The position numbers were made by a program, and so were the translations under genes. Shown piece after piece: positions 2,195 through 47,571 of a DNA stretch of 64,000 bases (within the stretch, counting starts at the first letter, position 1; every line of letters begins with the position of its first letter). The stretch is from Leptospiraceae bacterium. GTDB lineage: Bacteria > Spirochaetota > Leptospiria > Leptospirales > Leptospiraceae. Under the pieces are notes generated by a model, which was not told where the DNA came from, searched no databases, and saw only the letters and a list, made by a program, of their open reading frames with translations. Location: the NCBI GenBank assembly GCA_022402465.1, contig JAKRSH010000042.1, positions 1-64,000 on the forward strand, written 5' to 3'.

Positions 2195-2354
2195 TAACAA
2201 GAATGAAAAACTTTAGCTTGGAAAAATACCATTTTTGACAACAATTTATTCAAACTTCCTCTGTTTCTGGATTAAACAAGAGTTAGATGATCGTTGTCAC
2301 GGATTTTCTTATTGGCTGTCTAAATATTATTAAGAAAATTACAAAGGAAATTCC

Positions 2355-2756
2355 ATGAAAACATCAAAATTTTTCAAATCAAAAATTATAGGGCTTTTAC
2401 TCAGCATACTGCTGCTTGGCTTAGGAATCAATTGCAAAGAGACATCTCAATCTGATTCAATAATGGAAGTTGCAGTTTACAAAATAAAGAAAGACCAGAT
2501 CCAGAACTCAGCTGAGTTTACCAAAACCGTGGATGTTTTTCTACAATCACGTGAGGGATTCATCTCTATCCAAAGATTGCAAGATGTAAACGATCCTTCT
2601 ATCTTTACTGATCTTGTTCTATGGAAGACAAAAGAAGATGCAGAACTTTCTGCAAAGGCCAGTGAGACGGAAGCAAGTTTGGTTCCATTTTTTGAAGCAA
2701 TCGAAAAGATGATCCACTTTGGTCACAATCTGCCCACGAATTCTAAAACCAAATAA
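2355..2756 (+). CDS. Small lipoprotein with ABM-like dimeric alpha/beta-barrel domain
   Basis: The product is 133 residues. A Lys-rich start and a hydrophobic stretch end in LGIN-C (Cys near residue 27), a spirochaete-style lipobox with Asn at -1. The mature part resembles the antibiotic-biosynthesis-monooxygenase-like dimeric alpha/beta barrel: 'EVAVYKIKKDQ', a helix, 'REGFISIQRLQDVNDPSIFTDLVLWKTKEDAE'. This fold binds small hydrophobic ligands or haem in other proteins; no catalytic residue can be assigned. A good ribosome-binding site (AAAGGA) precedes ATG 2355. It ends 14 bp before the GTG start of the sigma factor, so the two are probably cotranscribed. Confidence 0.65.
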   Translation: MKTSKFFKSKIIGLLLSILLLGLGINCKETSQSDSIMEVAVYKIKKDQIQNSAEFTKTVDVFLQSREGFISIQRLQDVNDPSIFTDLVLWKTKEDAELSAKASETEASLVPFFEAIEKMIHFGHNLPTNSKTK

Positions 2757-2770
2757 GAGAGACCTTGGCT

Positions 2771-3643
2771 GTGAATCAGATTTTTGATCCCAATTATTCA
2801 GATTCAGAAGACAAGACCTTAATTTCAGAAGCTTTAGGCGGATCTAGGTCCGCCTTGGATTTCTTAGTTAGGCGGCATTTTGATTTCATATACAATGTTG
2901 CTCTTAGATATGTCTTGAATCCAGATGATGCGGAAGATCTAACACAAGATGTTCTGGTGAAAGTGATTACAAAACTTTCCCAATTCCGTCATGACTCTGA
3001 TTTTAGAACCTGGTTGTATAGAATTGTTTTCAATCATTTTCTAACAATGAAAAAGACAAAGATGGAAAATGTGGTATCTAATTTTGATGAGTATGGTGCT
3101 GGTCTTGACTCAATTCCCAATCAGGATCTTACTGTAGAGGAAGCATTTAGTCTTAAGGAAGAAGTTGTTGATGCCAAGCTCTCTTGCATGACTGGAATGC
3201 TCATGTGCCTCTCCAGAGAACAAAGACTAGTGTACATCTTAGGGGAATTTTTTGACATGGATAGTTCCTTGGGATCAGAAATATTCAGTATCAGCCCAGA
3301 AAATTATAGAAAGCAACTTTCTCGTGCGAGAAAAGACTTATACCAATTTATGAATCAAAAATGTGGACTCATAAATCTGGATAACCCATGCCGTTGTCCC
3401 AAGAAGACCAAGGGCTTCATAGAAGCTGGCTGGGTGAATCAAGAAAATCTTCAATTTAATAAGCACTTTAAACAAAGGATCCATGAGCTAGTCCTCAGCA
3501 AATCCAATCTCTGTGATAGTCTACTCGAAGAAAAATACGGAAGCCTCTTCAAAGATCATCCTTATTACAATAAATCCAATTCCAAGATTAAAATTCTGGA
3601 ATTCACCCAAGACTTAGAAGCAAAAAAGATTTTTGATTTGTAG
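2771..3643 (+). CDS. ECF-type RNA polymerase sigma factor with Cys-containing C-terminal extension
   Basis: Sigma-70 region 2 is clear near residues 25-95 ('LVRRHFDFIYNVALRYVL', 'DAEDLTQDVLVKV', 'FRTWLYRIVFNHFL'). Region 4 lies near 150-195 ('LSREQRLVYIL' ... 'SPENYRKQLSRARKDL'). A further 95 residues follow, containing C-x8-C-x-C ('CGLINLDNPCRC') and a 'KKTKGFI' motif; this tail is an accessory domain seen in some ECF groups. No anti-sigma gene is adjacent. The frame opens at TTG 2765, but GTG 2771 lies about 10 nt after AAGAGAG and is preferred. The partner upstream is a lipoprotein, suggesting an envelope-linked signal (inference). Confidence 0.85.
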   Translation: MNQIFDPNYSDSEDKTLISEALGGSRSALDFLVRRHFDFIYNVALRYVLNPDDAEDLTQDVLVKVITKLSQFRHDSDFRTWLYRIVFNHFLTMKKTKMENVVSNFDEYGAGLDSIPNQDLTVEEAFSLKEEVVDAKLSCMTGMLMCLSREQRLVYILGEFFDMDSSLGSEIFSISPENYRKQLSRARKDLYQFMNQKCGLINLDNPCRCPKKTKGFIEAGWVNQENLQFNKHFKQRIHELVLSKSNLCDSLLEEKYGSLFKDHPYYNKSNSKIKILEFTQDLEAKKIFDL

Positions 3644-5523: not shown

Positions 5524-6405
5524 TTACCTTTTCTTTTCGAGAACATCAGAATAAATTGTCAATAGGTCTTCCATGTCTGTCCAACCAGATTTTTTATAAA
5601 TATTAATGAGGTTTCGGAACATCCTTTTTAGTATTGAATTCGTACTAGTTCGGGCAAAATACTTTTGCGAAGCAGTAAAACCATTGTTCGTTAAAAATTT
5701 CTCACAGGTTTCTCTATCTAAGAGCACACCATTGTGAAAAGGATCTATGTAAGTAGAAAAATCTGGAGAATCAAAAAACAAGAGAAAATGGAAAGGCATA
5801 TTCGTTCCGTATAAAGGAAGGCCGATTCTCTTTGCAACAAGGATATAAATGACCGATAGAGAGATTGGAATTCCTACCTTTGACTTAATTACATTTGTAA
5901 GAAAAGAATTCTCTGGAAGATCATATACTTTTTGATTTCCTGTAAGACCTTCTTCCTCAACCAAAACTCGAATCAGAATATTAACCTTAGATTCATCCGA
6001 AAGAATTTCAAGATTTTCATCAAATAATTCTTCAACACGATTTGCTAGTTTATCTAAGTATTCCTTCATCTCGAAATAAGATGCCTCGGGATCGCCTAAC
6101 TCTGAAATCAGAAAAGCGCCTTCTTCTAAGTCTTCGTAGTTGCGAGAGCTTTGCTTTTCGGATATCTTTTGGAAGCGATAGTAAGTTCTTTCTGTTTGAA
6201 TCAATCTATAATAAGCTCTAGAATTGGTTCTAAGGATAGGATCCTTGAGTGTATCTATCACATCCAAAATCGGGTGTTGCCATGGAATGACAGCTGATAT
6301 TCTACGAATTACATCATGCTTAGATTCTTGGGGCGTGAATTCTAATTCATAGAATAGATTTCCCAATTCTTCAATGGGTAGAGGTTGAATATCAGAAGAC
6401 TTCAT
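5524..6405 (-). CDS. SirB1/transglutaminase-like family protein
   Basis: The product is 293 residues with no signal peptide, so probably cytoplasmic. The central region matches the SirB1/transglutaminase-like (Transglut_core2) family: 'VGIPISLSVIYILVAKRIGLPLYGTNMPFHFLL' followed by 'YIDPFHNGVLL' (about residues 170-235). These proteins keep a protease-like fold, but the nucleophilic Cys is not obvious here, so catalysis is doubtful. It lies in a minus-strand run with transketolase N-terminal subunit (31 bp upstream) and polyprenyl synthase (8 bp downstream), so it is likely cotranscribed. No pathway link is clear. Confidence 0.8.
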   Translation of the reverse strand: MKSSDIQPLPIEELGNLFYELEFTPQESKHDVIRRISAVIPWQHPILDVIDTLKDPILRTNSRAYYRLIQTERTYYRFQKISEKQSSRNYEDLEEGAFLISELGDPEASYFEMKEYLDKLANRVEELFDENLEILSDESKVNILIRVLVEEEGLTGNQKVYDLPENSFLTNVIKSKVGIPISLSVIYILVAKRIGLPLYGTNMPFHFLLFFDSPDFSTYIDPFHNGVLLDRETCEKFLTNNGFTASQKYFARTSTNSILKRMFRNLINIYKKSGWTDMEDLLTIYSDVLEKKR

Positions 6406-6436
6406 AGTATAAAATTTCCCTAGCTAGCCAATCTGG

Positions 6437-7255
6437 TCAAGAATGAACCAATTCTTTGAGAGCGACTTCTTCTTGCTCTTTAGATGGTGGAGTTCCATGC
6501 CATTTTGCTTGGTTCTCCATATAGGACACTCCCTTACCAATCGTAGTTCTGAATACGATTAAACTGGGTGAGCCTTTGTGGTTTTGTACTTTTTCAAAAG
6601 AAGAAATGATTCCCGCCACATCATGGCCATCTGCTTCGATTACATTCCAACCGAAGGCTCTGAATTTGTCTGGAAGAGGTTCCAGTCTCATAACTTCTTC
6701 GGTATTGCCATCTATTTGTATGAAATTTCTATCCATAAAGGCTATGAGATTGTCTGTCTTGAAATGGACAGCTGATTGAGCTGCTTCCCAAGTCATTCCT
6801 TCTCCACATTCTCCATCAGATATACATGTATAGATTTTATGATTTTCATTTTTCAATCTTGCACCTAAGGCTAGTCCTACGGAAAGGGAAAGTCCCTGGC
6901 CCAAGGATCCACTGGAAGTCTCAAGTCCTTCCATATACCTAGTTGATGGGTGGCCTTGTAATCTGGACTTGATGTCCCGAAAGGTTAGAAGATCTTCTAC
7001 TGGAAAATACCCAGCAAGAGCCATAGCTGCATATCGAACTGCGCAGGTGTGACCGTTGGAAAGAACAAGTCTATCTCGGCCTTCCCAATTTGGATCCTGT
7101 GGTTTGTGCTTGAGAATTTTTTTATACAAGACAGCGAAGATATCAGCAAGACCTAGTGGGCCACCTGGGTGTCCCGATTTTGCAGCTGTAACCATTTTGA
7201 TGATATTGATACGAATATCATTTGCAAATTTTTCGATTTCTTTGATTTCACTCAT
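6437..7255 (-). CDS. Transketolase, N-terminal (thiamine diphosphate-binding) subunit
   Basis: This 272-residue protein corresponds to only the first half of a classical transketolase, as in two-subunit enzymes. Seen: '[21 protein letters not shown]' (substrate/ThDP site), 'LSNGH', '[19 protein letters not shown]', the ThDP/Mg motif '[14 protein letters not shown]', and 'HGTPPSKEQ' near the C-terminus. The enzyme moves two-carbon units between sugar phosphates in the pentose phosphate pathway, but needs a C-terminal subunit; none is encoded in this window. ATG 7255 has AAGGA about 10 nt upstream. A small membrane-protein gene ends 12 nt upstream and a SirB1-like gene follows. Confidence 0.88.
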
Positions 7256-7267
7256 TGGAAATAATCC

Positions 7268-7651
7268 TTATACTGATTTAAAAATAAAAAGCCCAGAAAC
7301 ATAGATCATTAAATATAAAACTATAAATGGTTTGTGGAGAAGAATATGCCACTTCCGATTTCTAGTCACACCGAGATAAGCCATTGTCAACATAAGACCA
7401 AGAGTTACAACTGCAAAAGCTCTGTGAGTATGGATGATCCAATCTGAAACAGCATATTGAATTCCAAATTGTTCAAGTCCACCTAATCCATATTTAAGTA
7501 TGAGTAAATAAATTGCAGTCACTAAATTGAAGCCCACTCCACTTAAATTACTAACAACATGGATTGCGTTATTCTTTGTTCGAAAGAAATACCCAATCGT
7601 AAATGCAATTACAGAAAGTGTCATTCCTAAATGGATATAAGTAAGGCTCAT
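7268..7651 (-). CDS. Small four-helix membrane protein, unknown function
   Basis: The product is 127 residues with four predicted membrane spans (about residues 5-22, 35-52, 75-95 and 105-124). Several His residues sit at or near span ends (His7, 'IIHTHRAF', 'WHILLHKPF'), a pattern seen in haem- or quinone-associated small membrane proteins such as DUF420-like families; this resemblance is weak. It is the first gene of a minus-strand run leading into transketolase, SirB1-like and polyprenyl synthase genes. The ATG at 7651 is preceded by a TTGGA ribosome-binding site. Function unknown. Confidence 0.65.
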   Translation of the reverse strand: MSLTYIHLGMTLSVIAFTIGYFFRTKNNAIHVVSNLSGVGFNLVTAIYLLILKYGLGGLEQFGIQYAVSDWIIHTHRAFAVVTLGLMLTMAYLGVTRNRKWHILLHKPFIVLYLMIYVSGLFIFKSV

Positions 7652-7736
7652 AATCCAACTCTAAATTAGGACACTTGCAGGACAAAAAGATTTTTCTATT
7701 GACCGTGTATTTTCTCTTGAAACCATGGTCGTACAC

Positions 7737-7808
7737 GCCGCCTTAGCTCAGTGGTAGAGCAGCTGTCTTGTAAACAGCCGGTCGGAGGTTCGAGTCCCTC
7801 AGGCGGCT
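7737..7808 (+). tRNA. tRNA-Thr(UGU)
   Basis: The 72-nt cloverleaf has a seven-pair acceptor stem (GCCGCCT with AGGCGGC), D arm GCTC/GAGC, anticodon loop CTTGTAA with anticodon TGT at 7769-7771 (reads ACA), and T-loop TTCGAGT. The discriminator is T and CCA is not encoded. The T-stem GGAGG/CCCTC has an A-C mismatch at its third pair. tRNA-Tyr follows 58 nt downstream on the same strand. Confidence 0.93.
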
Positions 7809-7866
7809 AATTGTAAATCAGTCTCTTATCCATTCAGATTTGAGGCATGGTTTTGAGAAATAATAA

Positions 7867-7948
7867 GGGTAGGTACCCAAGTGGTCAACGGGATCAGACT
7901 GTAAATCTGCCGGCTCAGCCTTCGAAGGTTCAAATCCTTCCCTGCCCA
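7867..7948 (+). tRNA. tRNA-Tyr(GUA)
   Basis: This 82-nt tRNA has a long variable arm, as expected for bacterial tRNA-Tyr. Acceptor GGGTAGG pairs with CCTGCCC (one G-T wobble), the anticodon loop CTGTAAA carries GTA at 7901-7903, and the T arm is GAAGG-TTCAAAT-CCTTC. Discriminator A; CCA not encoded. It lies 58 nt after tRNA-Thr, probably in the same transcript, and ends 3 nt before the stop of a convergent gene. Confidence 0.95.
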
Positions 7949-7951
7949 ATT

Positions 7952-8965
7952 TTATTTCGTATACAACCACTTCACTGCATTCTCATAGAACTCTGATTGG
8001 TCTCTTGAAGCTAGGATCTCCCAAGCTATCTTAAGATTTTTCTCGGATTCTTTTCTAAGCTCTCTACTGCATACCAATTTCAAAGTAGTATCAGACTCAG
8101 ATGAGAAATTGTAAGATAATTTACCAAGGCTACAAGCCTTTGTGATTTTTCCTTGAGAAACATAGCTCTTGGCAGATTCTCTCAAGCTTCTTTCTTTGTT
8201 CGCAAGATTTCCACTTATCGTAAAGTTCTCTATCGATTCATTATAATAACTCATTGACTTTAAATACTGAGCATACAAATAAATGGCATCAGAACGCTCT
8301 ATGGCTGTTAAATTCTCTTTATCCAAATACTCTGTTATGCGATCTGCTGTTTGAGAATCTTGTGTTTTCACTAGGATGGCAATTTTCAAAGAAGGTTTGG
8401 CAAGAGATTCGGGAAGATAAAAAAGGAGAGTCCTAAGTGCTTCATAATTAGAAGTATAATTTAGAATACTATAGCAGAATTCTAGTAATTTGGATGAATT
8501 TCTCTCGATCAAAATTTCTAGTAAGACAGATATATTTTCACTTGAAGGGTCAACTAATAAAGGATAGGTTGTATAAAAATCTGAAGAAGTGATTTGGTAG
8601 GCTTTGAACATTTCTTGGAGATTGTTTTGGTGTTCTTTTGATAATTTAAGTTGGGTTCCATATTTTGAATAATGACTTAGAAGTTCAGGATACTTTTTGT
8701 ATTTGCTATAGAGAAAGTACAAGCGGATTGAGGCTATCCTTCTCACGTCTTTGGCAATTGATCCAGAAAGCAATTGCTCATAAATTGGTATGGCAAAAAT
8801 GGGATAATCTTTTTCTAAATGGTAAGCATGTTCATAAAGATTAATACCTTCTGTCTTTACTGAATAAAGGGAATTAGTAAAGGTATGAGATAAAAATGTT
8901 ATAAGAAAAAATACAGCTAAAAATTTATTATTTTTTGATCCTAAGAATAGAAGAAGAGCATGCAT
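7952..8965 (-). CDS. Exported helical-repeat (TPR-like) protein
   Basis: The 337-residue product has a hydrophobic N-terminal segment (about residues 14-32) acting as a signal peptide or anchor, then a wholly helical region resembling degenerate tetratricopeptide repeats: 'YEHAYHLEKDYPIFAIPIYEQLL', 'AIYLYAQYLKSMSYYNESIENFTISG', 'NAVKWLYTK'. Such repeats usually mediate protein contacts. It starts 2 nt after the stop of the class A PBP gene on the same strand, so it is very likely translated with it and may help the PBP in the periplasm (inference from position). No enzyme motif is visible. Confidence 0.65.
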   Translation of the reverse strand: MHALLLFLGSKNNKFLAVFFLITFLSHTFTNSLYSVKTEGINLYEHAYHLEKDYPIFAIPIYEQLLSGSIAKDVRRIASIRLYFLYSKYKKYPELLSHYSKYGTQLKLSKEHQNNLQEMFKAYQITSSDFYTTYPLLVDPSSENISVLLEILIERNSSKLLEFCYSILNYTSNYEALRTLLFYLPESLAKPSLKIAILVKTQDSQTADRITEYLDKENLTAIERSDAIYLYAQYLKSMSYYNESIENFTISGNLANKERSLRESAKSYVSQGKITKACSLGKLSYNFSSESDTTLKLVCSRELRKESEKNLKIAWEILASRDQSEFYENAVKWLYTK

Positions 8966-8967
8966 AC

Positions 8968-11694
8968 TCAGAATAATTCCTGGAGCACTTCTCTATTTCC
9001 TGAGTTTGGTTCTGCAAAGCTACTGCATGAATCTTTTATGACATTGTCTTGAGTAAACCATTCCTGTCCTGGTGGACAATCTGTACAACTTGATTTGATT
9101 GGAAGGCATACTTTTGCAGATACAGCATAGATGGGCTTAGGAAATGATTCTGATTTCAAGTGTCTACCCTTGTCTCCGTAAGCCATGATCTCACCCCAGA
9201 GCGGAGCCGCAACTGTTCCACCGAGACCACTAGAACCCATTCCATACCTTGGGTTATCAAAGCCTGCCCAAACAGCCATAGCAATTCCAGGTCTCAGTCC
9301 AACAAACCAGGAATCTTTATAATCTTGGGTTGTTCCCGTTTTGCCTGCAAGAATTCCTTTGTAGCCAGAACTATACACTCCACTGGCTCGTCCACTATCC
9401 TTAAGAAGAGAAAGTATCACCTCAGAGGTATCTGCTTTCAATACCTTCCTCTCTTCATCTACTTTCAGATCAAATTCATCTTTGTTCTGATTTGTATAAA
9501 TCACTTTCCCACTGGGATCAGTGATTTTTCTAATAAGAAATGGACGAACTATTCGTCCTTCATTTCCAAAGGCAGAGAATGCAGATGCCATTTCGAGTGG
9601 AGATATTTCTAAGGTTCCTAGTGCAAGGGAAAGGTCATTGCGGAAGCGTTTGTTTTTCTCACGAGAATCTGGAAAGAAAAATTGTGAAAAATAATGATCT
9701 AAATTACTAAACCCAAGTTTCTCTGCAACTTGAACTGCGGCGGTGTTTTTGGATTTTGTTAGTGCATATCGTACGGAAATTTCTCCATCATAATTCTTTC
9801 CTAAATTGTCAGGCATCCAATTTGGCATACCTTGCACTCCACGAAAAATCAGGGGTGCATCCATAATTTTATCTGCAGTAGAAATCTTTCCTTCATTGAT
9901 AGCGGATGCGTATAAGATTGGTTTAATGGAAGAACCAGTTTGGCGACGCATTTGATTGACTCGATTGAATTGATTGTCCGATTTAAATTCATCCCCCCCA
10001 TGCATGAATAGTATTTCGCCAGTCTGAGGATTGATCGCAACAACGGCAGCTTGAAGACCAGATTGAACTTCAGCTTGGGTAGTATTTAATTCTGAGGAAG
10101 AAAAAAGTTCCATAGCTAAGTATGCATCATTCATTAATTTTCGAATCGCCAAAGTTTCAGGAGAAGCATTTTCATTGCTTTTTCTTAGAACTGTCTTTCG
10201 AACAGTTCCTCGCTTTTGGACATTTACAAGGTGGCGATGAACTATTTTCTCTAATTCTTCTTGGATTCCTTTTATGATGGTTGTCTCAACAATATACCCA
10301 CCTGAATCATAAATTTCATTGCTTCCATGAATTTTTTTGAGAACTTCTCTTACATGTTCAGTTACATAAGGAGCCAGGTCTTGGCGGTTTCCAAAAACAG
10401 TTTCGTTAGGTGACCTAACAGAAAACTTTGTATATATCTGATTGATTTCTTCATTTTTAATATCTTGGACTAAACCACGGTTCTTGAAAGCTTCAATGAT
10501 GTATTCCAATCGAATTTTAGAACCCTTAGGATTTTTTAAAGGTGAGTTTCGATTGGGAGCAGAAGGTAGTGTTGCAAGTAGAATCGCTTCGGATCGTTTC
10601 AATTCACTAGGATTTTCATTAAAATAAAATTTAATTCCTTCTCCAAATCCAAATGCTCCATGTCCAAGGTACACATTGTTCATGTAATATTCTAAGATCT
10701 CATCTTTACTGAGATATGCCTCTAATGCTAGGGCAAGTTCTAACTCTTTCCATTTTCTTGAAATGGTTTTGGATCTGTCATCCAAGAGAATTCTTGCAAG
10801 CTGCTGAGTAATAGTAGAAGCACCTTGTTTGTATCTTAAGTGAATAATATTTTGAAATAAAGCTCTCACAAGAGCATAGAAATCAATTCCACTGTGTGAA
10901 TAAAAATTTCTATCTTCTACATTCAGTAAGGCAATCTTTAGATTTTCGGGATAATCACTTAATTTTAAAGTACTTGTTCTCTTCTGAAAAATCTCAGATA
11001 CAACCTGTCCATTTCTATCTAGGATTTTGGTCGGCTTGCCTTTGGAGAGGCTTCCCAGAATTTCATTCATCTCCGATTTAAGTTGAAGAATCCCTGTACC
11101 CAAAATGGCTAGCATAATTCCTGTTAAGATTAATGTACTTAAGCCTGACCAATAAAGGTATTTCAACCAAGGAATATTTTGTGTATTATAGCTTTGGGAT
11201 TTAAAACTTTGGAATGATTTAGATCCAGTTCTATTCTCTTTTGGAATGAATAAATTTCTTAAGAAATTTTTAGATCCTTCTATCCACGAAAGAGTTTGTC
11301 CCAACCAACTAGACTGGGAGGATGATTTCTTGATTCTATCTTTTAAGCTTAAGAATGTAGGATTCTCAACCGGGATTTTCTTTTTTTCCCAAAGAGGAAT
11401 TTCTCTAGTGCTATTTTGATTTTGATTCCTTGTATTAGAATATTTTAAACTTGGATTGCTAGAATTTGAATTGCTTCTAAGTGGTGCCTTGGCAGGAGCT
11501 TCCATTCTTCTTGCTGGAATAATATCTTCAATTTGATACCCACCGTCCAAGAAACGGATGAGAGATTTTTCGTGACAAAGAGCACAAGAAATTCTATATT
11601 TTCCAGAGCTAGGAATAGGTTCAGGAAGTTTTGTAGATCCATTACAATGAGGACAGAGGAATCGATCTGAGCTGGATTTAATCTGACTTTCCAT
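8968..11694 (-). CDS. Class A penicillin-binding protein with N-terminal zinc ribbon
   Basis: This 908-residue bifunctional peptidoglycan synthase polymerises glycan strands (GT51 domain) and cross-links peptides (transpeptidase). Residues 14-40 hold a CxxC-x19-CxxC zinc-ribbon pattern (C14, C17, C37, C40), followed by a polar linker to about 175 and one membrane span (about 181-203). The GT51 domain has E260 in 'EDRNFYSH' and 'GASTITQQ' (291-298). The transpeptidase has S588-xx-K591, SKN (648-650) and KTG (785-787). The zinc ribbon should face the cytoplasm, which is unusual for a class A PBP. The ATG at 11694 overlaps the ChaN-like gene by 17 bp, and a TPR-like gene follows 2 nt after the stop. 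Confidence 0.93.
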   Translation of the reverse strand: MESQIKSSSDRFLCPHCNGSTKLPEPIPSSGKYRISCALCHEKSLIRFLDGGYQIEDIIPARRMEAPAKAPLRSNSNSSNPSLKYSNTRNQNQNSTREIPLWEKKKIPVENPTFLSLKDRIKKSSSQSSWLGQTLSWIEGSKNFLRNLFIPKENRTGSKSFQSFKSQSYNTQNIPWLKYLYWSGLSTLILTGIMLAILGTGILQLKSEMNEILGSLSKGKPTKILDRNGQVVSEIFQKRTSTLKLSDYPENLKIALLNVEDRNFYSHSGIDFYALVRALFQNIIHLRYKQGASTITQQLARILLDDRSKTISRKWKELELALALEAYLSKDEILEYYMNNVYLGHGAFGFGEGIKFYFNENPSELKRSEAILLATLPSAPNRNSPLKNPKGSKIRLEYIIEAFKNRGLVQDIKNEEINQIYTKFSVRSPNETVFGNRQDLAPYVTEHVREVLKKIHGSNEIYDSGGYIVETTIIKGIQEELEKIVHRHLVNVQKRGTVRKTVLRKSNENASPETLAIRKLMNDAYLAMELFSSSELNTTQAEVQSGLQAAVVAINPQTGEILFMHGGDEFKSDNQFNRVNQMRRQTGSSIKPILYASAINEGKISTADKIMDAPLIFRGVQGMPNWMPDNLGKNYDGEISVRYALTKSKNTAAVQVAEKLGFSNLDHYFSQFFFPDSREKNKRFRNDLSLALGTLEISPLEMASAFSAFGNEGRIVRPFLIRKITDPSGKVIYTNQNKDEFDLKVDEERKVLKADTSEVILSLLKDSGRASGVYSSGYKGILAGKTGTTQDYKDSWFVGLRPGIAMAVWAGFDNPRYGMGSSGLGGTVAAPLWGEIMAYGDKGRHLKSESFPKPIYAVSAKVCLPIKSSCTDCPPGQEWFTQDNVIKDSCSSFAEPNSGNREVLQELF

Positions 11695-34553: not shown

Positions 34554-35060
34554 ATGAAAGTTCTAATTGATGCTTTAAATTTAATCTATAAATTTCCTGA
34601 TTTGGAACTTTGCATGTATGAGGATCGTTTGGATGAGGCAAAATCTGGGCTTCTGAAGATTTTGCAAGATTGCTCTAGAAAGTGGAAGGATTATGAGTTT
34701 ATCATATTCATCGATGGCCAAAGAATCAAAGGGGATTATGAAACCTACCAAGAAAAAGCCAATGGAATGGATGTGTTTTATAGTCATGAGAAAGAAGCCG
34801 ATGATTTAATTCGAGAATATATTAAAGAAAATCCATTTCCAAATCGCTTAACACTCATTACATCAGATAAAAAGATTTTACAGTATGCAAGACAATTTAA
34901 AGTGAAATATTACACCTCAGAACAATTTTCTGAGATGATACGACTTCTGTTAAATGAGGAAGCAAGCGAAGATCCTGACTCTAAACCAATTGAAAGGGTA
35001 TCAGAAGATTTAGAACATTGGTATAATGTTTTTACTCAGCATCAATCACAAACCAAGTAA
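34554..35060 (+). CDS. YacP-like NYN domain ribonuclease-type protein
   Basis: This 168-residue protein resembles YacP (DUF901, NYN/PIN-like nuclease family). Seen: 'VLIDALNLIYKFP' at the N-terminus with a metal-ligand Asp, 'FIIFIDGQRIKG', 'HEKEADDLIREYI' and 'LITSDKKILQYAR', which together give the acidic cluster of the fold. Related proteins cut RNA (Rae1 cuts mRNA on ribosomes). It reads into a convergent PP2C gene, with a 29-bp overlap of the two 3' ends (35032-35060). No signal peptide; cytoplasmic. Confidence 0.8.
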   Translation: MKVLIDALNLIYKFPDLELCMYEDRLDEAKSGLLKILQDCSRKWKDYEFIIFIDGQRIKGDYETYQEKANGMDVFYSHEKEADDLIREYIKENPFPNRLTLITSDKKILQYARQFKVKYYTSEQFSEMIRLLLNEEASEDPDSKPIERVSEDLEHWYNVFTQHQSQTK

Positions 35061-36849
35061 TATCATCTGGATATCTTCTACCTTCAGAGTGAGATAGAAT
35101 TTCTGATTCCAACTTAGTTGAAAATTCTTCTATAGAAAGATGTCCATTATTGGATACAAAATTTTGGATACTTTCTTCTCCGTAAGGAACATTTGCTGGA
35201 TTCATAACATCCATCAAGCCATCAGTAAAAAGAAAGAACCTGGAATTAGAATTATAAGAAAGAGAGATGATTTTTAAAAATTTATCTGTGTTAAGCGGTA
35301 ATCCTAAGACTGGATTCAATTTATCAAAGATTTGAGTGCCCTTTTCCTTTTTTTTCTCTTGGTAGATAAGACCAGGATGTCCTGCATTTGCATAATCAAT
35401 TCGTTTTTCTTTTGTATTGAAAACTATAAAGTGAAGGGGTACTATTGATTTGCCTGGAGGAAGATTTTCTTTGATGCTTACTGCTAACTTTTTTAAAATA
35501 TCTAAGTAATCATTGCTAGTTGCTGTAATTTGAAGAAACAAGACTTTCACAACTGTCATCATCATTGCAGCTTGCAAGCCATGACCAATTACATCTGCCA
35601 TTACAAATAAATACCTATCATCATCTAATTGAATGAAATCATAGTAATCACCACCTACTTGGTAGTAAGGTTTATAAAAAACTTTGAATTTGAGTCCATT
35701 AAAATCCGCCTTATCATTTGGCAAATATTCTTCCTGAATGGTTTTAGCCATTTCCATTTCTTGCTCAAACATAAGTTTCTTTGCCGTCAAATCTCTTAGT
35801 ATGATAGAATACCCTTCTGGATCGGAACTTTCCCCGAACCAAGGAGAGAGAGTCACTTCCCAGGTTTTATCTCTTTGGATTTCCCAAACATACTTCATGA
35901 TATTTGTTTTAGAAGTATTCATTCTGAATTGAGAATCCTTATTAATTTCAATATGAAGGTCAGGGTTTTCTTCGAAGATTTGATTTAAAATTTTATTAGC
36001 TGCAATAATCTTCAACTCCTTGGTGACTATTGCTGCACCAATTGGAAGATTATCCACAAAAGAAGATAATTTATTTTTCTCTTTTTTCAATTCTGCCATA
36101 TAACGGGCGATAAAATAAGAAACAGAAGTTACAAAAATGATAATTAGAATAAAACTTAATCCAATGCGAATTAATCCAATGCGCACCTTTGATATAATTT
36201 CATTCTTAGATTTAATAATAATTAAATGGAAGGGCAGGGTAGGCATTCTAGATGAAATTACAAAGTGGGAATCTGAAGATTTTCTAAATAGAGAGAGGAA
36301 GCTTAGATTTTTATTTCCTTCAATGATTTGTTTGGATGCTTGGTTAATTTGAAAATTATCCTCAATAACACTTGAAACTCCTTTTTGATCAATATTATTG
36401 AGAATAATAATGATTTCTTGTGGGCTTGTTAGATCAGAATCTAACATTTTATCGATTAGAAAATCAGCATGGAATTTCCAAATTTCAATTTCAGAACCAA
36501 TTTTCCTTTGGAAATGAAAATACGGACTTTCAGACTCCCAAACAATTTTCAGTATGGGTTCTAGGCTGGTCTTTTGGTTGCTTGCAATTCTATAATTACT
36601 AAGCCATTCCTTAGAATTTCTGGATGGATAGATTCTATCTTTGATAGAACTTTCAAGGCTTGCTGAAATAGCTTTTGATTTTACAAGAAGTTCATCCTCT
36701 TCTTTTTCGATGAGGGATGAATAAAAATTTTGAACAAGAAACAAAGAAAAAACTGTTAAAGGAAGGGTAAAAAAAAGGGAAAAAAGAATTAAATAATATA
36801 TAAAAAACTTCGATTGGAGCTTGATTTTAAATTGGTTTAGCTTTGACAT
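35032..36849 (-). CDS. Membrane sensor with PAS-like and SpoIIE (PP2C) phosphatase domains
   Basis: This 605-residue protein has a first span (about 15-35), an extracytoplasmic sensor (about 36-225), a second span (about 228-248), a PAS-like region (about 260-365, 'SFVDNLPIGAAIVTKELKIIAANKILNQIFEENPD') and a PP2C/SpoIIE domain with intact 'VGGDYYDF', 'ADVIGHGLQAAM', 'FTDGLMDVM' and 'DDITWFVID'. It probably dephosphorylates a Ser/Thr-phosphorylated partner. Its 3' end overlaps the convergent YacP-like gene by 29 bp. The upstream OmpL47-like gene ends 45 bp away on the same strand. Confidence 0.92.
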   Translation of the reverse strand: MSKLNQFKIKLQSKFFIYYLILFSLFFTLPLTVFSLFLVQNFYSSLIEKEEDELLVKSKAISASLESSIKDRIYPSRNSKEWLSNYRIASNQKTSLEPILKIVWESESPYFHFQRKIGSEIEIWKFHADFLIDKMLDSDLTSPQEIIIILNNIDQKGVSSVIEDNFQINQASKQIIEGNKNLSFLSLFRKSSDSHFVISSRMPTLPFHLIIIKSKNEIISKVRIGLIRIGLSFILIIIFVTSVSYFIARYMAELKKEKNKLSSFVDNLPIGAAIVTKELKIIAANKILNQIFEENPDLHIEINKDSQFRMNTSKTNIMKYVWEIQRDKTWEVTLSPWFGESSDPEGYSIILRDLTAKKLMFEQEMEMAKTIQEEYLPNDKADFNGLKFKVFYKPYYQVGGDYYDFIQLDDDRYLFVMADVIGHGLQAAMMMTVVKVLFLQITATSNDYLDILKKLAVSIKENLPPGKSIVPLHFIVFNTKEKRIDYANAGHPGLIYQEKKKEKGTQIFDKLNPVLGLPLNTDKFLKIISLSYNSNSRFFLFTDGLMDVMNPANVPYGEESIQNFVSNNGHLSIEEFSTKLESEILSHSEGRRYPDDITWFVIDAE

Positions 36850-38690: not shown

Positions 38691-40172
38691 ATGCTCTTTA
38701 ATTCTATATCATTTCTTTTCTTTTTTTCCTTTGTTTATCTAGTATATTGGAGTATCCCTGAAAAAAACCGCAAAGCATTTTTATTGCTTTCAGGGATTGT
38801 TTTTTACTCATTTTTCTCTTGGGCACTCTCATTTCACTTTTTAATCACTGTCGGAATAAACTATTATTTCTATAGATGTATCATTCGGTTTAAAGATGAA
38901 AAATGGCCTCTTAGAACTGCTGTAATTTTAAATATACTGAATTTAGGATTTTTTAAATACTTTTACTTCTTCAATAGAGTCATTGCAGACGCTACGGGCT
39001 ACCCTTTTTTTGAAGGTATTTCAAGTTTCGTACATATTGCACTTCCCATGGCAATTAGTTTTTACAGCTTCCAAATGATTGCAGCAGCTGTTGACACAAA
39101 ACGAAATATTCCTTCCAAACCTGTTTCCGCCTTTGATTACTATCTTTTCGTTGTTTTCTTTCCTGTTTTGATCGCAGGTCCCATTATGAGGATGGGAGAT
39201 TTTTTCCCTAATCTATCTCAATTAAAACCAGAAAGCGATAAGGTCTATAGAGCAAGTTATCTAATGATGGCGGGTTTAATCAAAAAGGTATTAGTCGCCG
39301 ACCCTATCTCCTCAACAATCCAGCCTATTTTTGCTGAACCAGGTATTTATGATAGTTATTCCTTATTTATGGCTGGGATTTGTTATTCCATTCAAGTGTA
39401 TTGCGACTTTTCCGGTTTAACTGACATGGCTAGATCGGTTGCTCTTTTTCTGGGATTTGATATCCCTGAGAATTTTAAAGCACCCTTCTTTTCGACTTCA
39501 GGCAGCGAGCTATGGAAAAGATGGCACATAACACTCTCACTATGGTTGAGAGATTACATTTACTTTCCATTAGGCGGATCACGTGTGTCTGAATGGCGAG
39601 GTTATTTCAATTTAATTGTAACTATGACCTTGGGAGGCTTTTGGCATGGAGCCGATTATACCTTTGTAGTCTGGGGTTTTTATTGGGGAGTTATTCTTTC
39701 AGCAGAAAGAATGCTTGAAGATAAATACAAACTTCCACTGACCCCACAGAAAAGTTTCCCTCTCAAAGTATTTAAAGCAAGTATTGTATTTGTTCTTTTC
39801 TCAATCAGTGGATTGATGTTTCGTTCCAATGACGCTGCTTCCATGGTTTTACTTTTCCAAGGACTCATAACAAACTCTTCAAATTTTATTTTGGATTCTC
39901 TATCATCCGGCTCAAGCCAATGGGTACAGCAAGCAGGATCTATAGTTGGTGGGACTGACTTTTTCATTATGGAAAGAATTTCTAATTTAGAGAGAGTTTC
40001 CTATATGTTTACAGTGATGGTGCTTTTCCATTGGGTTCAATATTCTCCTGAGATTTTAACGAAATTTCGTAAGCATGATGCATGGATGATGCCAGTGCTT
40101 GGTGCTATTACGATACTAATGCTTGCTATGCTATCCCAAGATGGAGGAGAGTTCATTTACTACAAATTTTAA
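38691..40172 (+). CDS. MBOAT family O-acyltransferase (AlgI-like)
   Basis: This 493-residue membrane-bound O-acyltransferase has about 11 spans. Seen: 'LFNSISFLFFFSFVYLVYWSIP' opening, 'GYFKYFYFF'-type segment, 'VYCDFSGLTDMARSVALFLGF', 'LWKRWHITLSLWLRDYIYFPLGGSR' and 'GGFWHGADYTFVVWG' with catalytic His319. AlgI-type enzymes move acyl groups through the membrane to a periplasmic partner that acylates sugars. The next gene, an SGNH-like protein starting 2 nt after the stop, is a likely partner. The substrate here is unknown; surface polysaccharide or LPS is a guess. Confidence 0.9.
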   Translation: MLFNSISFLFFFSFVYLVYWSIPEKNRKAFLLLSGIVFYSFFSWALSFHFLITVGINYYFYRCIIRFKDEKWPLRTAVILNILNLGFFKYFYFFNRVIADATGYPFFEGISSFVHIALPMAISFYSFQMIAAAVDTKRNIPSKPVSAFDYYLFVVFFPVLIAGPIMRMGDFFPNLSQLKPESDKVYRASYLMMAGLIKKVLVADPISSTIQPIFAEPGIYDSYSLFMAGICYSIQVYCDFSGLTDMARSVALFLGFDIPENFKAPFFSTSGSELWKRWHITLSLWLRDYIYFPLGGSRVSEWRGYFNLIVTMTLGGFWHGADYTFVVWGFYWGVILSAERMLEDKYKLPLTPQKSFPLKVFKASIVFVLFSISGLMFRSNDAASMVLLFQGLITNSSNFILDSLSSGSSQWVQQAGSIVGGTDFFIMERISNLERVSYMFTVMVLFHWVQYSPEILTKFRKHDAWMMPVLGAITILMLAMLSQDGGEFIYYKF

Positions 40173-40173
40173 T

Positions 40174-41259
40174 ATGACACTGATAAAAAATAAATTCATA
40201 CTCGCTCCTTTTTTAGCTTTTATCTTAGCCTTTATCTTGGATAAGGTTTTGCTTTCGGAGAATATCCAGACATATTTTTCAAAGACTATGTCCGAGATCA
40301 ATTACTCTCAAAAGGAAGAATTGTATGATGAGCTCAAAGCATATTTGAAACAAGAGAATCACCGTAAAGTTTTAGTATATTTTGGAACTTCTAGAGCCTT
40401 GCTTTTTGAAAACAATTATATTGAATCTGAATTCAAAGATTGGACTTTGTTTAATTTTTCTGTACCAGGTGGAACTCCTGATTATACCTTGTATTGGCTT
40501 GAAAGATTCCAAGAGGATAAGGTTAAACCTAACTTTGTATTATTGGATCAATCCGTAGAAGCTTATAATTCTGCTGCTGTAATCAGCCTAGATGATGTTC
40601 TCACCAATGGACTCAGTGTATCATTTGTACTCAGACATTCCAAAAATTATTCATCCTCAGAAATTTCTACCTTACTTGCCAAGAGAATGTTTAAGACCTA
40701 CCACTATCGCCCCAAGATGGCAACTGTTCTTGCGAGAGTGAAAGATGATTTTGCTATTTTAAAAAGCTATCGTGAACTTCGCGCGGGACTTAAGAAAAGC
40801 CTTAAAGATGGGAAAGGATCTGCTATGACTCCAGGAACTTCTTCTGGAATCATGCCCGATGAAATGCTCAAGAAGTCTTCCTGGGGAGATTTCCATTCTT
40901 ACATGGTTCCATATCATTTCAAAGACCAACCCATGTATTTTCTAGGTCTATCTTATCAGATTCTAGATGAAATGAATATTCCCCATGCAGCAATTTGGGT
41001 TCGTTTATCTAGACCATATTATACATTGATTCAAAATGAACTGGTAACAACCAAAAGCAAAGAAAAATCTACCGTCTATAATCTTTGGTTTCCAGAGATA
41101 TCAAAATTTCAGAAAGAGCATAAAGTTGATTTATGGAATATGAATGATGATCCTAATTACAATTGTGATTTGTTCTTGGACTCTGGTCATATGTCACCTG
41201 CATGTTACAAGGATTATACGAATTATATATTTAACCAACTAAAGAAATCGGGCAATTGA
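40174..41259 (+). CDS. DUF1574-like/SGNH-fold partner of MBOAT
   Basis: The 361-residue product starts at ATG 40174, just after the MBOAT stop (upstream in-frame codons at 40123 and 40141 would overlap it). One N-terminal span (about residues 8-24) anchors a periplasmic domain. Seen: 'VLVYFGTSRALLF' (Ser/GDS-like nucleophile region) and a C-terminal 'DLFLDSGHMSPACY' (Asp/His pair), which fits an SGNH hydrolase/acyltransferase fold as in AlgJ/AlgX or the DUF1574 family of Leptospira. It probably takes the acyl group from the MBOAT protein to a sugar. Confidence 0.75.
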   Translation: MTLIKNKFILAPFLAFILAFILDKVLLSENIQTYFSKTMSEINYSQKEELYDELKAYLKQENHRKVLVYFGTSRALLFENNYIESEFKDWTLFNFSVPGGTPDYTLYWLERFQEDKVKPNFVLLDQSVEAYNSAAVISLDDVLTNGLSVSFVLRHSKNYSSSEISTLLAKRMFKTYHYRPKMATVLARVKDDFAILKSYRELRAGLKKSLKDGKGSAMTPGTSSGIMPDEMLKKSSWGDFHSYMVPYHFKDQPMYFLGLSYQILDEMNIPHAAIWVRLSRPYYTLIQNELVTTKSKEKSTVYNLWFPEISKFQKEHKVDLWNMNDDPNYNCDLFLDSGHMSPACYKDYTNYIFNQLKKSGN

Positions 41260-43900: not shown

Positions 43901-45901
43901 TTATACATGTCCTATTGCAAACACAATCATCAATGTTCCATAAGCATCTGGATTCTTAACAAGTTCAAAGAATTCTGCTTTTGCCTTGTTTACCATCTCA
44001 TCACTCGCTCCAGATCGCTTTAGATGATCAAATTTAAAACCATAAGCAGCAAAAATAAAAGCTTCCATTCCAACCTTAAGAGAACTAACAGGAAGGTATT
44101 TGATGGAGATTTTACTAAATCCAGCATTTTTCATCATTGCGTAAAGTTTTCTTCCTATGAGTCTATCTCCACCTAACTCTTTTTGAATTTTTTCAGAAGT
44201 ATTTTGAACTAAATCATAAGATTCAGGCTTTGGTTCTAAGAAGAGTAGGCCGTCATCAATATCTTCTATGATCACAAGACCATTAGGCTTTATAACTCTT
44301 TTCAGTTCTTTAACACCCTTTATAGGATTTTCTAAATGTTGAAAAACGAATCTAGAATAAACTAAATCATAGCTTGCATCTTTAAGGGGAAGTTCATACA
44401 CACTTCCTTGGGTAAATTTCATGGCAGGAACTGAGGAGTTTTCTTTTGTTGCTATATTGATAAGATTGGTATCAAGTTCAATTCCATGGATTATTTTTGG
44501 TTTATATGCATTATATACTTCATTTGCAAAAAATGCAGGTCCACAACCCACATCTAAAATTTCAGAACCATGATTAATACCGAAGCTATCAAACATTTTT
44601 CTTTCTAGATCAAAACCTGCCTTGGCTTGGAATCTCAATCTATCTAGTTCCCCAGATGAATCTGCAAATTCTGCAACTACATATGACCCTTTGGTTTTTT
44701 CTTCACTCATTCCGTTCTCTCCTAGGTTATGGTTGATATCTTTTGTATAATCAAATAATACTGTGTCTAAGACTGCTCTGGCTTCCATGAGTGCTTCATG
44801 TTTTTCATTAAAGCGATTGACTAAGATAGAAAATAAATTTGTGAGTAGTTTTAATGCTAGTGAAGGGAAGTTTGCTTCTAATTTTACAAATTCCTTTTGG
44901 TTGAGTAGAAGAATTTTAGATTTTTCCCTTACAACAATTTTAGCTGTTCTCTTTATCTTAGATACAAACCCAAGTTCGCCGAAGATTTCTCCCTGACTAA
45001 GAATTGCTAACAATTGGTGACCTTTCAAACCAGGAATAACAACTTCAACAGAACCTTCTAAGATACAATACATACCTTCACTTTCGTCATCTTTCTCGAA
45101 TACAACATCAGATCGATCAAAATCCAATAAATCAAGTTGGCCTAAAATCTTAGTCGCTTCTTCCGAAGTAAATCCTGACATAAAAGTTAGAACTTTTCTT
45201 GGATCTATGTTTACTTGTTCTGTAAATGTATTCCAAAGTACCTCATGACTCATGGAGAATAAAGGCTTTACACTGTAGTATTTTGGAAATTGCTTCTTGA
45301 AGAATTCTGCAGTATTCTTCTTGTTCTCATATTTCTTAGCAATTCTTTGAAAAGGAGATCTAACTTCTTTTAAATAATCTAAATCGTCTAGTATGAGTAC
45401 CAAAGGTATCGCATTTCCAAATTCAGGATGGTTGATATTTTCTTTATAAAATCTATAGCCCAATTGTTGGTACAGACGAACTAAATGCGGTCTAGTATCA
45501 ATGATATTAAATTGCAATCCCCATTCTCTATGAATTTCATAAGCGCTCATACAAAGTAAACTAGCAGCCATAGAATTTCTATATTTATCCAATACCAGGA
45601 GTTTGGTTGTCATAGAAATTGAGTTTGGATAAAAGGGTGTAAATTTTTCTAATTCATAAAGCTCTTCATATTCCAGGGGACCATCCATTTTTCGATTCAT
45701 CCTAAGAGTACCAACAATTTCATCATCGTCCTTCACATAAAGTAAATGGGCGGTATCATCCCAGGGTTCTTGGATTGTCTTTAGATCATGGTTTGCGAAG
45801 GCTTGGTTTCGCTTCAGCTCATCTATATATATATGATAACGTAAAGCAAAAATTCTTTGCTTTTCTTCGTGAGTTTTAGCGATTGATACGGAAAGTGACA
45901 T
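43901..45901 (-). CDS. Fusion: autoinducer-synthase-like acyltransferase, cNMP-binding domain, SAM methyltransferase
   Basis: This 666-residue cytoplasmic protein has three domains. Residues 1-175 resemble the GNAT/LuxI-FeeM-type N-acyl transferase fold ('RYHIYIDELKRNQ', 'DDTAHLLYV', 'EIVGTLRMNR', 'LGYRFYKEN'). Residues 240-360 are a cyclic-nucleotide-binding domain with cassette 'GEIFGELGFVSKIKRTAKIVV' (Glu309, Arg318 and Thr319 keep the phosphate-binding pattern). Residues 430-650 are a class I methyltransferase ('ILDVGCGPAFF', 448-458). A cNMP may gate the acyl transfer or methylation. Substrates are unknown. ATG 45901 diverges from a PP2C gene. Related acetyltransferase/cNMP fusions exist in mycobacteria, but this order with a methyltransferase is not one I know. 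Confidence 0.85.
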   Translation of the reverse strand: MSLSVSIAKTHEEKQRIFALRYHIYIDELKRNQAFANHDLKTIQEPWDDTAHLLYVKDDDEIVGTLRMNRKMDGPLEYEELYELEKFTPFYPNSISMTTKLLVLDKYRNSMAASLLCMSAYEIHREWGLQFNIIDTRPHLVRLYQQLGYRFYKENINHPEFGNAIPLVLILDDLDYLKEVRSPFQRIAKKYENKKNTAEFFKKQFPKYYSVKPLFSMSHEVLWNTFTEQVNIDPRKVLTFMSGFTSEEATKILGQLDLLDFDRSDVVFEKDDESEGMYCILEGSVEVVIPGLKGHQLLAILSQGEIFGELGFVSKIKRTAKIVVREKSKILLLNQKEFVKLEANFPSLALKLLTNLFSILVNRFNEKHEALMEARAVLDTVLFDYTKDINHNLGENGMSEEKTKGSYVVAEFADSSGELDRLRFQAKAGFDLERKMFDSFGINHGSEILDVGCGPAFFANEVYNAYKPKIIHGIELDTNLINIATKENSSVPAMKFTQGSVYELPLKDASYDLVYSRFVFQHLENPIKGVKELKRVIKPNGLVIIEDIDDGLLFLEPKPESYDLVQNTSEKIQKELGGDRLIGRKLYAMMKNAGFSKISIKYLPVSSLKVGMEAFIFAAYGFKFDHLKRSGASDEMVNKAKAEFFELVKNPDAYGTLMIVFAIGHV

Positions 45902-45913
45902 AGGAAATTATTT

Positions 45914-45919
45914 ATTATA
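45914..45919 (-). promoter_or_regulatory. -10-like box ahead of the fusion gene
   Basis: TATAAT on the minus strand (45914-45919) is a perfect -10 match, but it lies only 13 nt before the ATG at 45901, so it would give a very short leader. No good -35 box is visible at 16-18 nt. Confidence 0.25.
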
Positions 45920-45984
45920 CTTTTAATCTAACTATTAATACTAATCGACGTCTAGATAGACAAAAAAAAGCTAATCTTTCACTT

Positions 45985-46014
45985 TTGACTAGATTTTATA
46001 TTTTCTTTTATTAT
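45985..46014 (+). promoter_or_regulatory. Promoter-like boxes ahead of PP2C gene
   Basis: TTGACT (45985-45990) and TATTAT (46009-46014) are 18 nt apart, followed by AAGG and ATG 46036. The region is shared with the divergent fusion gene, so the two could be coordinately controlled. Confidence 0.45.
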
Positions 46015-46035
46015 TTTTGTCCAAGGTAAGAAATT

Positions 46036-47571
46036 ATGGATAACCATCACAGCACACATGCAGAAGAAGAAAAGGCGTTTCGATTTCAACTCACTGATTA
46101 TTGGAAGAAAAGAATCCATGAAATACAGGTTGAAGGTGAGATTAAGGCTGAGTATTTTGCCTCTCAGTTTCGATTTTTCTTCATAGGGTTTTTAATTCTA
46201 TTTTCGGTTCTTTCCCGTTTAGGAGGAAGACCGGTAGTTGAATTGTATGGTCAATTGAGCGCAATTTCTATTCTTTTAGTATTTAATATTATTGTTTTTG
46301 TTCTATTGAAAAAGTCCAAAAAATCGGGAGTTTATTATAGTCAGATCAAATACTTCGCTAGTTTTTTAGAGATTACAATCTTAACAACTTTGCTTTGGTA
46401 TCTATCTATCTCGTCCTTGAATCCTACCCATACCTATACTGGTGCTATGTCCTTCATCTATTTTATGTTGATAGCTCTTGCCTCAATCCGAAATAGAAAA
46501 TCAGTAATCTACTTCGCAGCGGCCCTTGCTATATTGCAATATGGTGGATTGATGTTTTATTTTTATGGGGACATGAAGCCCATGCTTGCAAAATTAATAG
46601 AACTCAGCGCAAATATTTCTCCTGAGATGGGCGAGGCTGGTGAGAAATTTATCCTTGTTTCTATCGCTCCTATGGGTTTTATCCTCAAATCCTTTTACAT
46701 GGGACTAACCGCTTATCTAGTCATTTATTCTATTAAAAATGCGAATGATACTTCCCAAAGGCAAGCGAACCTTATTTTTGATACGGAAAAGAAAGCTATA
46801 CTCGAAGAGAATATGAGACTAGGTATGGAATTGGATGTAGCCAGACAATTGCAGGCTATGGTGCTTCCTAGCTCGCAAGAAATTTCCAATTGTAAGGATT
46901 TACAAGTTGCTGCAATGATGGAAGCAGCCAATGAAGTAGGTGGAGATTATTACGATGTCTATCCTATGCCGAACGGTTCTACTTACTTTGCTATGGGAGA
47001 TGTTACGGGTCACGGTCTACAATCAGGTGTAGTAATGATGATGACTCAGTGTTCTTTTCGTTCTTCTCTAGAGAGGGGAGGGCAGACTTTACCAGAGATG
47101 CTTATGAATATAAATTCCGTTCTATTTGGAAATATTCAAGGCAGAATGAAGGATACAAGAAATCTCACCTTATCTTTGTTCCACTATCAAAATGGAAAAA
47201 TATTTCTAACTGGTCAGCATGAAGACTTTTTGATTATGAAATCTGGACAGAAAGAATCCAAGATCATTGATACTATAGATTTGGGAATTTATGTAGGTCT
47301 CACTGATAATATTGAAGGGATGGTTGCAGAGCGAGAAATAGATTTTGCAATTGGAGATACATTTCTTGGATACACAGATGGAGTGACTGAGGCTGAGAAT
47401 CACGAGAAACATTACTATGGCCATCACCGCCTAAAGGCAAAATTTGAAGAACTTGCACATTTACCAGCAGCAGAAATAGTTGCTGGTATTTATGCGGATC
47501 TAAAAGTATTCATAGGATCTACAGAAATCTATGATGATATTAGTCTAATGGTCGTTAAGCGAGTTGCTTAA
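46036..47571 (+). CDS. Membrane-bound SpoIIE (PP2C) phosphatase
   Basis: This 511-residue protein has a short cytoplasmic N-terminus, about six spans (residues 48-235), a helical linker and a SpoIIE/PP2C domain (about 280-511). Motifs are intact: 'VGGDYYDVY', 'GDVTGHGLQSGVV', 'YTDGVTEAE' and 'DDISLMVVKR'. The membrane part is probably the sensor. It should dephosphorylate a Ser/Thr-phosphorylated partner. It diverges from the acyltransferase/cNMP/methyltransferase fusion gene, 134 bp away. AAGG precedes the ATG. Its 3' end is 3 bp from the convergent YhaN-like gene. Confidence 0.92.
   Translation: MDNHHSTHAEEEKAFRFQLTDYWKKRIHEIQVEGEIKAEYFASQFRFFFIGFLILFSVLSRLGGRPVVELYGQLSAISILLVFNIIVFVLLKKSKKSGVYYSQIKYFASFLEITILTTLLWYLSISSLNPTHTYTGAMSFIYFMLIALASIRNRKSVIYFAAALAILQYGGLMFYFYGDMKPMLAKLIELSANISPEMGEAGEKFILVSIAPMGFILKSFYMGLTAYLVIYSIKNANDTSQRQANLIFDTEKKAILEENMRLGMELDVARQLQAMVLPSSQEISNCKDLQVAAMMEAANEVGGDYYDVYPMPNGSTYFAMGDVTGHGLQSGVVMMMTQCSFRSSLERGGQTLPEMLMNINSVLFGNIQGRMKDTRNLTLSLFHYQNGKIFLTGQHEDFLIMKSGQKESKIIDTIDLGIYVGLTDNIEGMVAEREIDFAIGDTFLGYTDGVTEAENHEKHYYGHHRLKAKFEELAHLPAAEIVAGIYADLKVFIGSTEIYDDISLMVVKRVA

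Follow-up and report, generated by a model that had tools for sequence, protein, structure and literature searches.

Organization of the locus

The window, that is, the whole stretch of 64,000 nucleotides analysed here, carries on its minus strand (43901..45901) a single gene whose product joins a FeeM-type acyltransferase domain, a cyclic-nucleotide (cNMP)-binding domain and a class I SAM methyltransferase domain. The open reading frame is uninterrupted over 666 codons, with neither a stop nor a frame break, its coordinates take in the stop codon, and no membrane segments are predicted in the 666-residue protein. A preliminary description of this DNA had read one frame of that length, containing a GNAT/LuxI-FeeM-like domain, a cNMP-binding domain with a kept phosphate cassette and a class I methyltransferase with the motif ILDVGCGPA. 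This reading is borne out in all its parts: the sequence motifs named, ILDVGCGPA and the FGE and RTA of the cassette, are all present, and a domain search of each third returns FeeM, cNMP_binding and Methyltransf_11, all above their curated Pfam cut-offs. The intact frame and the three domain matches together confirm the fusion as real.

The same architecture occurs in one order-mate belonging to another family (G103), where a full-length, collinear orthologue shows 50% identity (E = 5e-228), its Met aligning with the start codon at 45901. Such an orthologue excludes a chance resemblance, and it rules out that separate genes were brought together by a frameshift or by an assembly artefact.

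On the other side of an intergenic region of 134 bp (45902..46035) lies, in divergent orientation, a gene on the plus strand (46036..47571) for a SiaA-like PP2C phosphatase of 511 residues with a membrane sensor region. A second membrane-anchored SpoIIE-type PP2C, distant from the first (23% over 260 aa), is encoded at 35032-36849, and a gene for an MBOAT-like membrane acyltransferase, in overlap with that for a possible SGNH/DltD-like partner, was recognized, by eye only, at 38691-41259.

Domains of the fusion protein

The acyltransferase domain (residues 1-200, 45302..45901, minus strand) matches FeeM (PF21926) over residues 17-164 with 33.6 bits, a modest margin above the cut-off of 27, and Acetyltransf_5 over residues 20-116 with 31.2 bits against 22.4. 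The FeeM scores of its relatives are 48.3 bits for the orthologue in the order-mate and 41.3 bits for a protein of G067, a genome of the same class. An AlphaFold2 model of this region, built from 17 sequences, reaches a pLDDT of 93.4 and a pTM of 0.89, and the best Foldseek match in the PDB is FeeM itself (2g0b, E 9e-10, TM 0.69 when normalized to query length), the structurally aligned residues being 14-15% identical. The AHL synthases RpaI, MesI, BjaI, TofI and LasI also stand high, with ordinary GNATs close behind. Structure prediction, which had been proposed as a check, thus agrees with the FeeM/LuxI fold, and it is well supported that the first domain is an acyltransferase, to judge from the model closest, within the GNAT superfamily, to its FeeM/LuxI side. 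For the full-length protein the alignment depth was too low (pLDDT 48), and the structural reading is limited to this domain.

Five residues (R21, E28, G64, R108 and G148) are invariant across 17 relatives of the acyltransferase domain, OlsB-like proteins among them, and a profile of the four close relatives recovers OlsB-like GNATs throughout the order as remote homologues. The possibility that the domain is OlsB itself was rejected, a better candidate being encoded elsewhere in the same genome (C6:105054, which scores 187 bits with the OlsB model, whose cut-off is 320). FeeM-like GNATs fused to a class I/II aminotransferase were encountered in two other spirochaetes (L109 in G021, 1480-3177, and L099 in G033), the aminotransferase of L099 being identified from its translation only.

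The middle domain, with its C-helix, extends over about residues 228-370 (44792..45220, minus strand), and cNMP_binding (PF00027) matches residues 261-341 with 56.1 bits against a cut-off of 27.5. Its phosphate cassette, GEIFGELGFVSKIKRTAKI, contains FGE and RTA in a stretch that reads GEIFGELGF...KRTA. Within it, F307, G308, E309 and R318 are invariant in four aligned relatives, two of which come from another family of the class; the claim that the cassette is kept therefore stands for its Glu309 and Arg318 as well. From these sequence features, cNMP binding by the middle domain is predicted as likely. Matches to this part on rhizobial plasmids were dropped as stand-alone proteins, in unrelated contexts where annotated.

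The methyltransferase domain, carrying ILDVGCGPA as its motif I, occupies about residues 404-666 (43904..44692, minus strand), with Methyltransf_11 matching residues 449-545 at 75.1 bits against 21.2. It belongs to the UbiE/BioC-like class I group, its nearest solved structure by sequence is 3mgg, and among plasmid-encoded proteins it is matched best by one from a cyanobacterium that consists of this domain alone (31% over 266 aa). Further plasmid matches to this part pointed to the rhizobial PP2C operons described below.

Distribution of the fusion

The full three-domain protein is present in 2 of 393 Spirochaetota genomes, namely the window's genome and G103. Two further genomes from the class of the window's genome (G067 and G159) encode a two-domain FeeM-cNMP protein of about 375 residues, bringing the FeeM-cNMP proteins found to four. 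Neither form was found in seven family-mates of the window's genome, whose genus is represented by one genome in the comparison set, and a search of IMG/VR and GTDB contigs with strict peptide patterns returned no full relative. The preliminary description knew of no family with this domain order plus a methyltransferase; this holds insofar as no single NCBIfam model spans the protein, and requires correction insofar as the orthologue and the two-domain form show that it is not a one-off. The protein is, in fact, a rare, conserved three-domain enzyme, and it has a conserved sensor partner.

The divergent sensor and its exchanged output domain

The gene at 46036-47571 has about five transmembrane segments in residues 1-255, followed by a PP2C domain (SpoIIE, 99.6 bits against a cut-off of 25) in which the motifs VGGDYYD, GDVTGHG and TDGVTE, with their metal-binding Asp motifs, are kept. 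Its score against the SiaA model is 34.8 bits, where the cut-off is 700. In the order-mate, too, the fusion gene has a divergent neighbour, about 80 bp away, and this neighbour carries the same sensor (48% over 247 aa). There, the sensor is joined not to PP2C but to a class III cyclase domain (PF00211, 189 bits) containing KTIGD and YDIWGDTVN, which we take to be adenylate-type residues. Among the 393 genomes the sensor has only two close copies (3e-164 and 4e-67; the next match is at 6e-8), both beside the fusion, and the probability of such a co-occurrence by chance is 1.3e-5.

Class III cyclases are abundant in these genomes of about 4 Mb, with 32 matches in the window's genome and 56 in that of the order-mate. 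Consequently, adjacency to any cyclase is weak evidence when taken alone, and it is the identity of the sensor that carries the weight. On this comparison it is well supported that sensor and fusion travel together, with the output domain exchanged between cyclase and PP2C. Nothing speaks more strongly for a connection of the PP2C with the fusion enzyme than this pattern, which also provides indirect evidence for a connection with a cyclic nucleotide. The earlier suggestion that the phosphatase 134 bp away shares a circuit with the fusion is strengthened both by the restriction of the sensor to the fusions and by the PP2C genes found in the FeeM-cNMP operon of the relatives. No description of the cyclase/PP2C swap or of the three-domain combination was found in the literature searched, though each domain is known.

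Association with the slr1658-slr1659 module

In G067 and G159, the two-domain protein is encoded in an operon comprising a methyltransferase, a PP2C, an slr1658-type ATPase, an slr1659-type STAS protein, FeeM-cNMP, an outer-membrane-like protein and a hydrolase. The PP2C domains of this operon share 43-44% identity with that of the window; in G067 a few bases are shared between the STAS and FeeM-cNMP genes, and a gene for an adenylate-type cyclase lies divergent to the operon methyltransferase. A cyclase 49% identical to that of G067 stands beside PP2C-slr1658-slr1659 in G255. A methyltransferase gene adjoins the same trio in G202 (slr1659 by profile), and one of another subfamily does so in G093, G098 and G021. 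On rhizobial plasmids, a STAS-methyltransferase fusion, PP2C, slr1658 and slr1659 follow in series.

Three such plasmid loci (L073, L077 and L078) encode a GGDEF-EAL protein ahead of the STAS-methyltransferase fusion and PP2C, with a small ATPase-like protein between the GGDEF-EAL and fusion genes in L077 and L078, and slr1658 and slr1659 downstream in L073 and L078. In G188 (L137, 7221-7871), a weak GNAT gene separates PP2C from slr1658 in an operon that also encodes an FAD oxidase; this GNAT was set aside as not recognizably FeeM-like (18% identity, E 0.046).

No kinase or STAS gene lies beside the PP2C of the window. Elsewhere in this genome, at a second locus (G000:C38), slr1658 and slr1659, above cut-off, occur together with a methyltransferase and a lipoprotein-like alpha/beta hydrolase, so the genome has most of the parts of the operon, split over two loci. 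A second slr1658-type gene is divergent to this four-gene row (L094, G000:C38:67000-86900, 6265-9924). Of the 393 genomes, 8 contain slr1659, and these include 3 of the 4 with a FeeM-cNMP protein (P 2e-5, a value not corrected for phylogeny). Neither slr1658 nor slr1659 is above cut-off in the order-mate, so the enzyme does not strictly require the relay.

The idea that the fused methyltransferase is the operon methyltransferase simply joined on was rejected, as both the tree and BLAST set the two apart. They fall on different branches, in a tree with support that is weak in parts and with long branches, and the fusion is therefore no proof that the operon methyltransferase and FeeM-cNMP share one pathway.

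Proposed function and alternatives

Taken together, these features suggest a cNMP-gated, partner-switch-linked enzyme that makes an acylated, and probably methylated, small molecule, a reading to which we assign a probability of about 0.5. The protein would be a soluble cyclic-nucleotide-gated synthase, in which the FeeM-type domain would transfer an acyl chain from acyl-ACP or acyl-CoA to the amine of a small acceptor, for example an amino acid. The middle domain would bind a cNMP, most likely cAMP, and thereby switch the flanking catalytic domains, while the C-terminal domain would, in the simplest case, methylate either the product of the acylation or a precursor of it, so that both catalytic domains might serve one product. 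The adjacent membrane sensor would drive the circuit: at the orthologous locus the sensor protein itself would make the cyclic nucleotide, and in the window it would act via its PP2C, most likely by dephosphorylating the slr1659-type STAS protein from the second locus. A broader and more tentative proposal is that this sensor family controls the fused enzyme by two interchangeable outputs, a cyclase acting via the cNMP domain or a PP2C acting via the slr1659 switch, for the synthesis of a methylated N-acyl small molecule; this would be a previously undescribed module.

Two alternatives are rather less probable than that proposal and equally so to each other. The fusion could be a membrane aminolipid enzyme, which would N-acylate an amino acid for a lipid and methylate the head group as OlsG does, under stress control by the sensor, the product staying in the membrane and serving as no signal. 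The residues that the acyltransferase domain holds invariant in common with the OlsB-like proteins of the same genomes would fit such an enzyme, as would its weak matches to OlsB (E 0.001, with scores far below the OlsB cut-offs) and the N-methylation of ornithine lipids by OlsG in a planctomycete (PMC12493201). However, the separate and much better OlsB candidate already present in the genome argues against it, the fold search ranks FeeM and the AHL synthases first with no OlsB among the 50 PDB matches listed, and no OlsA-type O-acyltransferase is adjacent to the fusion.

Alternatively, the acyltransferase and methyltransferase could act on separate substrates, or on protein, and be joined only through a common cNMP and sensor control, for example as a Pat-like protein acyltransferase. 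Mycobacterial Pat is indeed an enzyme that acetylates proteins under the control of cAMP (PMC8556138); G067 and G159 encode the two activities in separate genes, and the rhizobial PP2C-slr1658-slr1659 operon includes a related methyltransferase with no acyltransferase among the adjacent genes read. Against separate substrates stand the collinear conservation of the fusion in two families of the order and a fold closest to the small-molecule acyltransferases FeeM and the AHL synthases, even if ordinary GNATs rank nearly as high.

It is improbable that the cNMP-like domain is a nucleotide-free scaffold or dimerization module, with control via the PP2C/STAS pathway or transcription alone: CRP-fold domains with other ligands, or with none, are numerous, and what adjoins the fusion in the window is a phosphatase rather than a cyclase, but the cassette residues Glu309 and Arg318 are invariant in all four proteins and two of the four loci have a cyclase gene next to them, which in one case takes the orthologous position and carries the same sensor.

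Returning to the gated synthase, the control of AHLs and other acyl signals is usually transcriptional. In the fusion, by contrast, a receptor for a second messenger and a modifying enzyme are built into the synthase itself, and the sensor next to it shows a natural swap between cyclase and phosphatase outputs. If the proposal is correct, a single circuit would connect the synthesis of acyl small molecules with both cyclic-nucleotide signalling and partner switching, in spirochaetes with dozens of nucleotide cyclases.

Comparison with known systems

The first domain shares its fold and Pfam family with the N-acyl amino acid synthase FeeM (PF21926; 2g0b); FeeM as solved comprises the acyltransferase domain alone, to which the fusion adds the cNMP-binding and methyltransferase domains. 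The mycobacterial proteins Rv0998/MtPat and MSMEG_5458 likewise join a cNMP domain to a GNAT-fold acyltransferase (PMC8556138). In Pat, however, the cNMP domain comes first, whereas the fusion has the reverse order, a GNAT of the FeeM/LuxI side and an extra methyltransferase; the Pat model, with a cut-off of 460, gives 23.5 bits and aligns with nothing but the cNMP part, which places the fusion outside that family.

With OlsB and OlsG the fusion has in common an acyl-ACP-type GNAT core, and the methylation of an acylated amino acid would be the same kind of chemistry, although OlsB and OlsG are separate proteins without a cNMP domain. A compound of the NAMEs type would be the simplest product of the fusion architecture, a link drawn from domain logic; no synthase gene for NAMEs was known as of PMC11580390.

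The regulatory part finds its closest counterpart in SiaABCD of Pseudomonas aeruginosa, which consists of a PP2C, a kinase, a STAS-like protein and a diguanylate cyclase, and for whose SiaABC components partner switching has been shown (PMC7647112). The relatives of the fusion similarly encode a PP2C, an ATPase-fold kinase-like protein and a STAS protein in one operon. Unlike in SiaABCD, the slr1658 and slr1659 superfamilies replace SiaB and SiaC, the output is an acyltransferase plus a methyltransferase, and in the window's genome the module is distributed over two loci.
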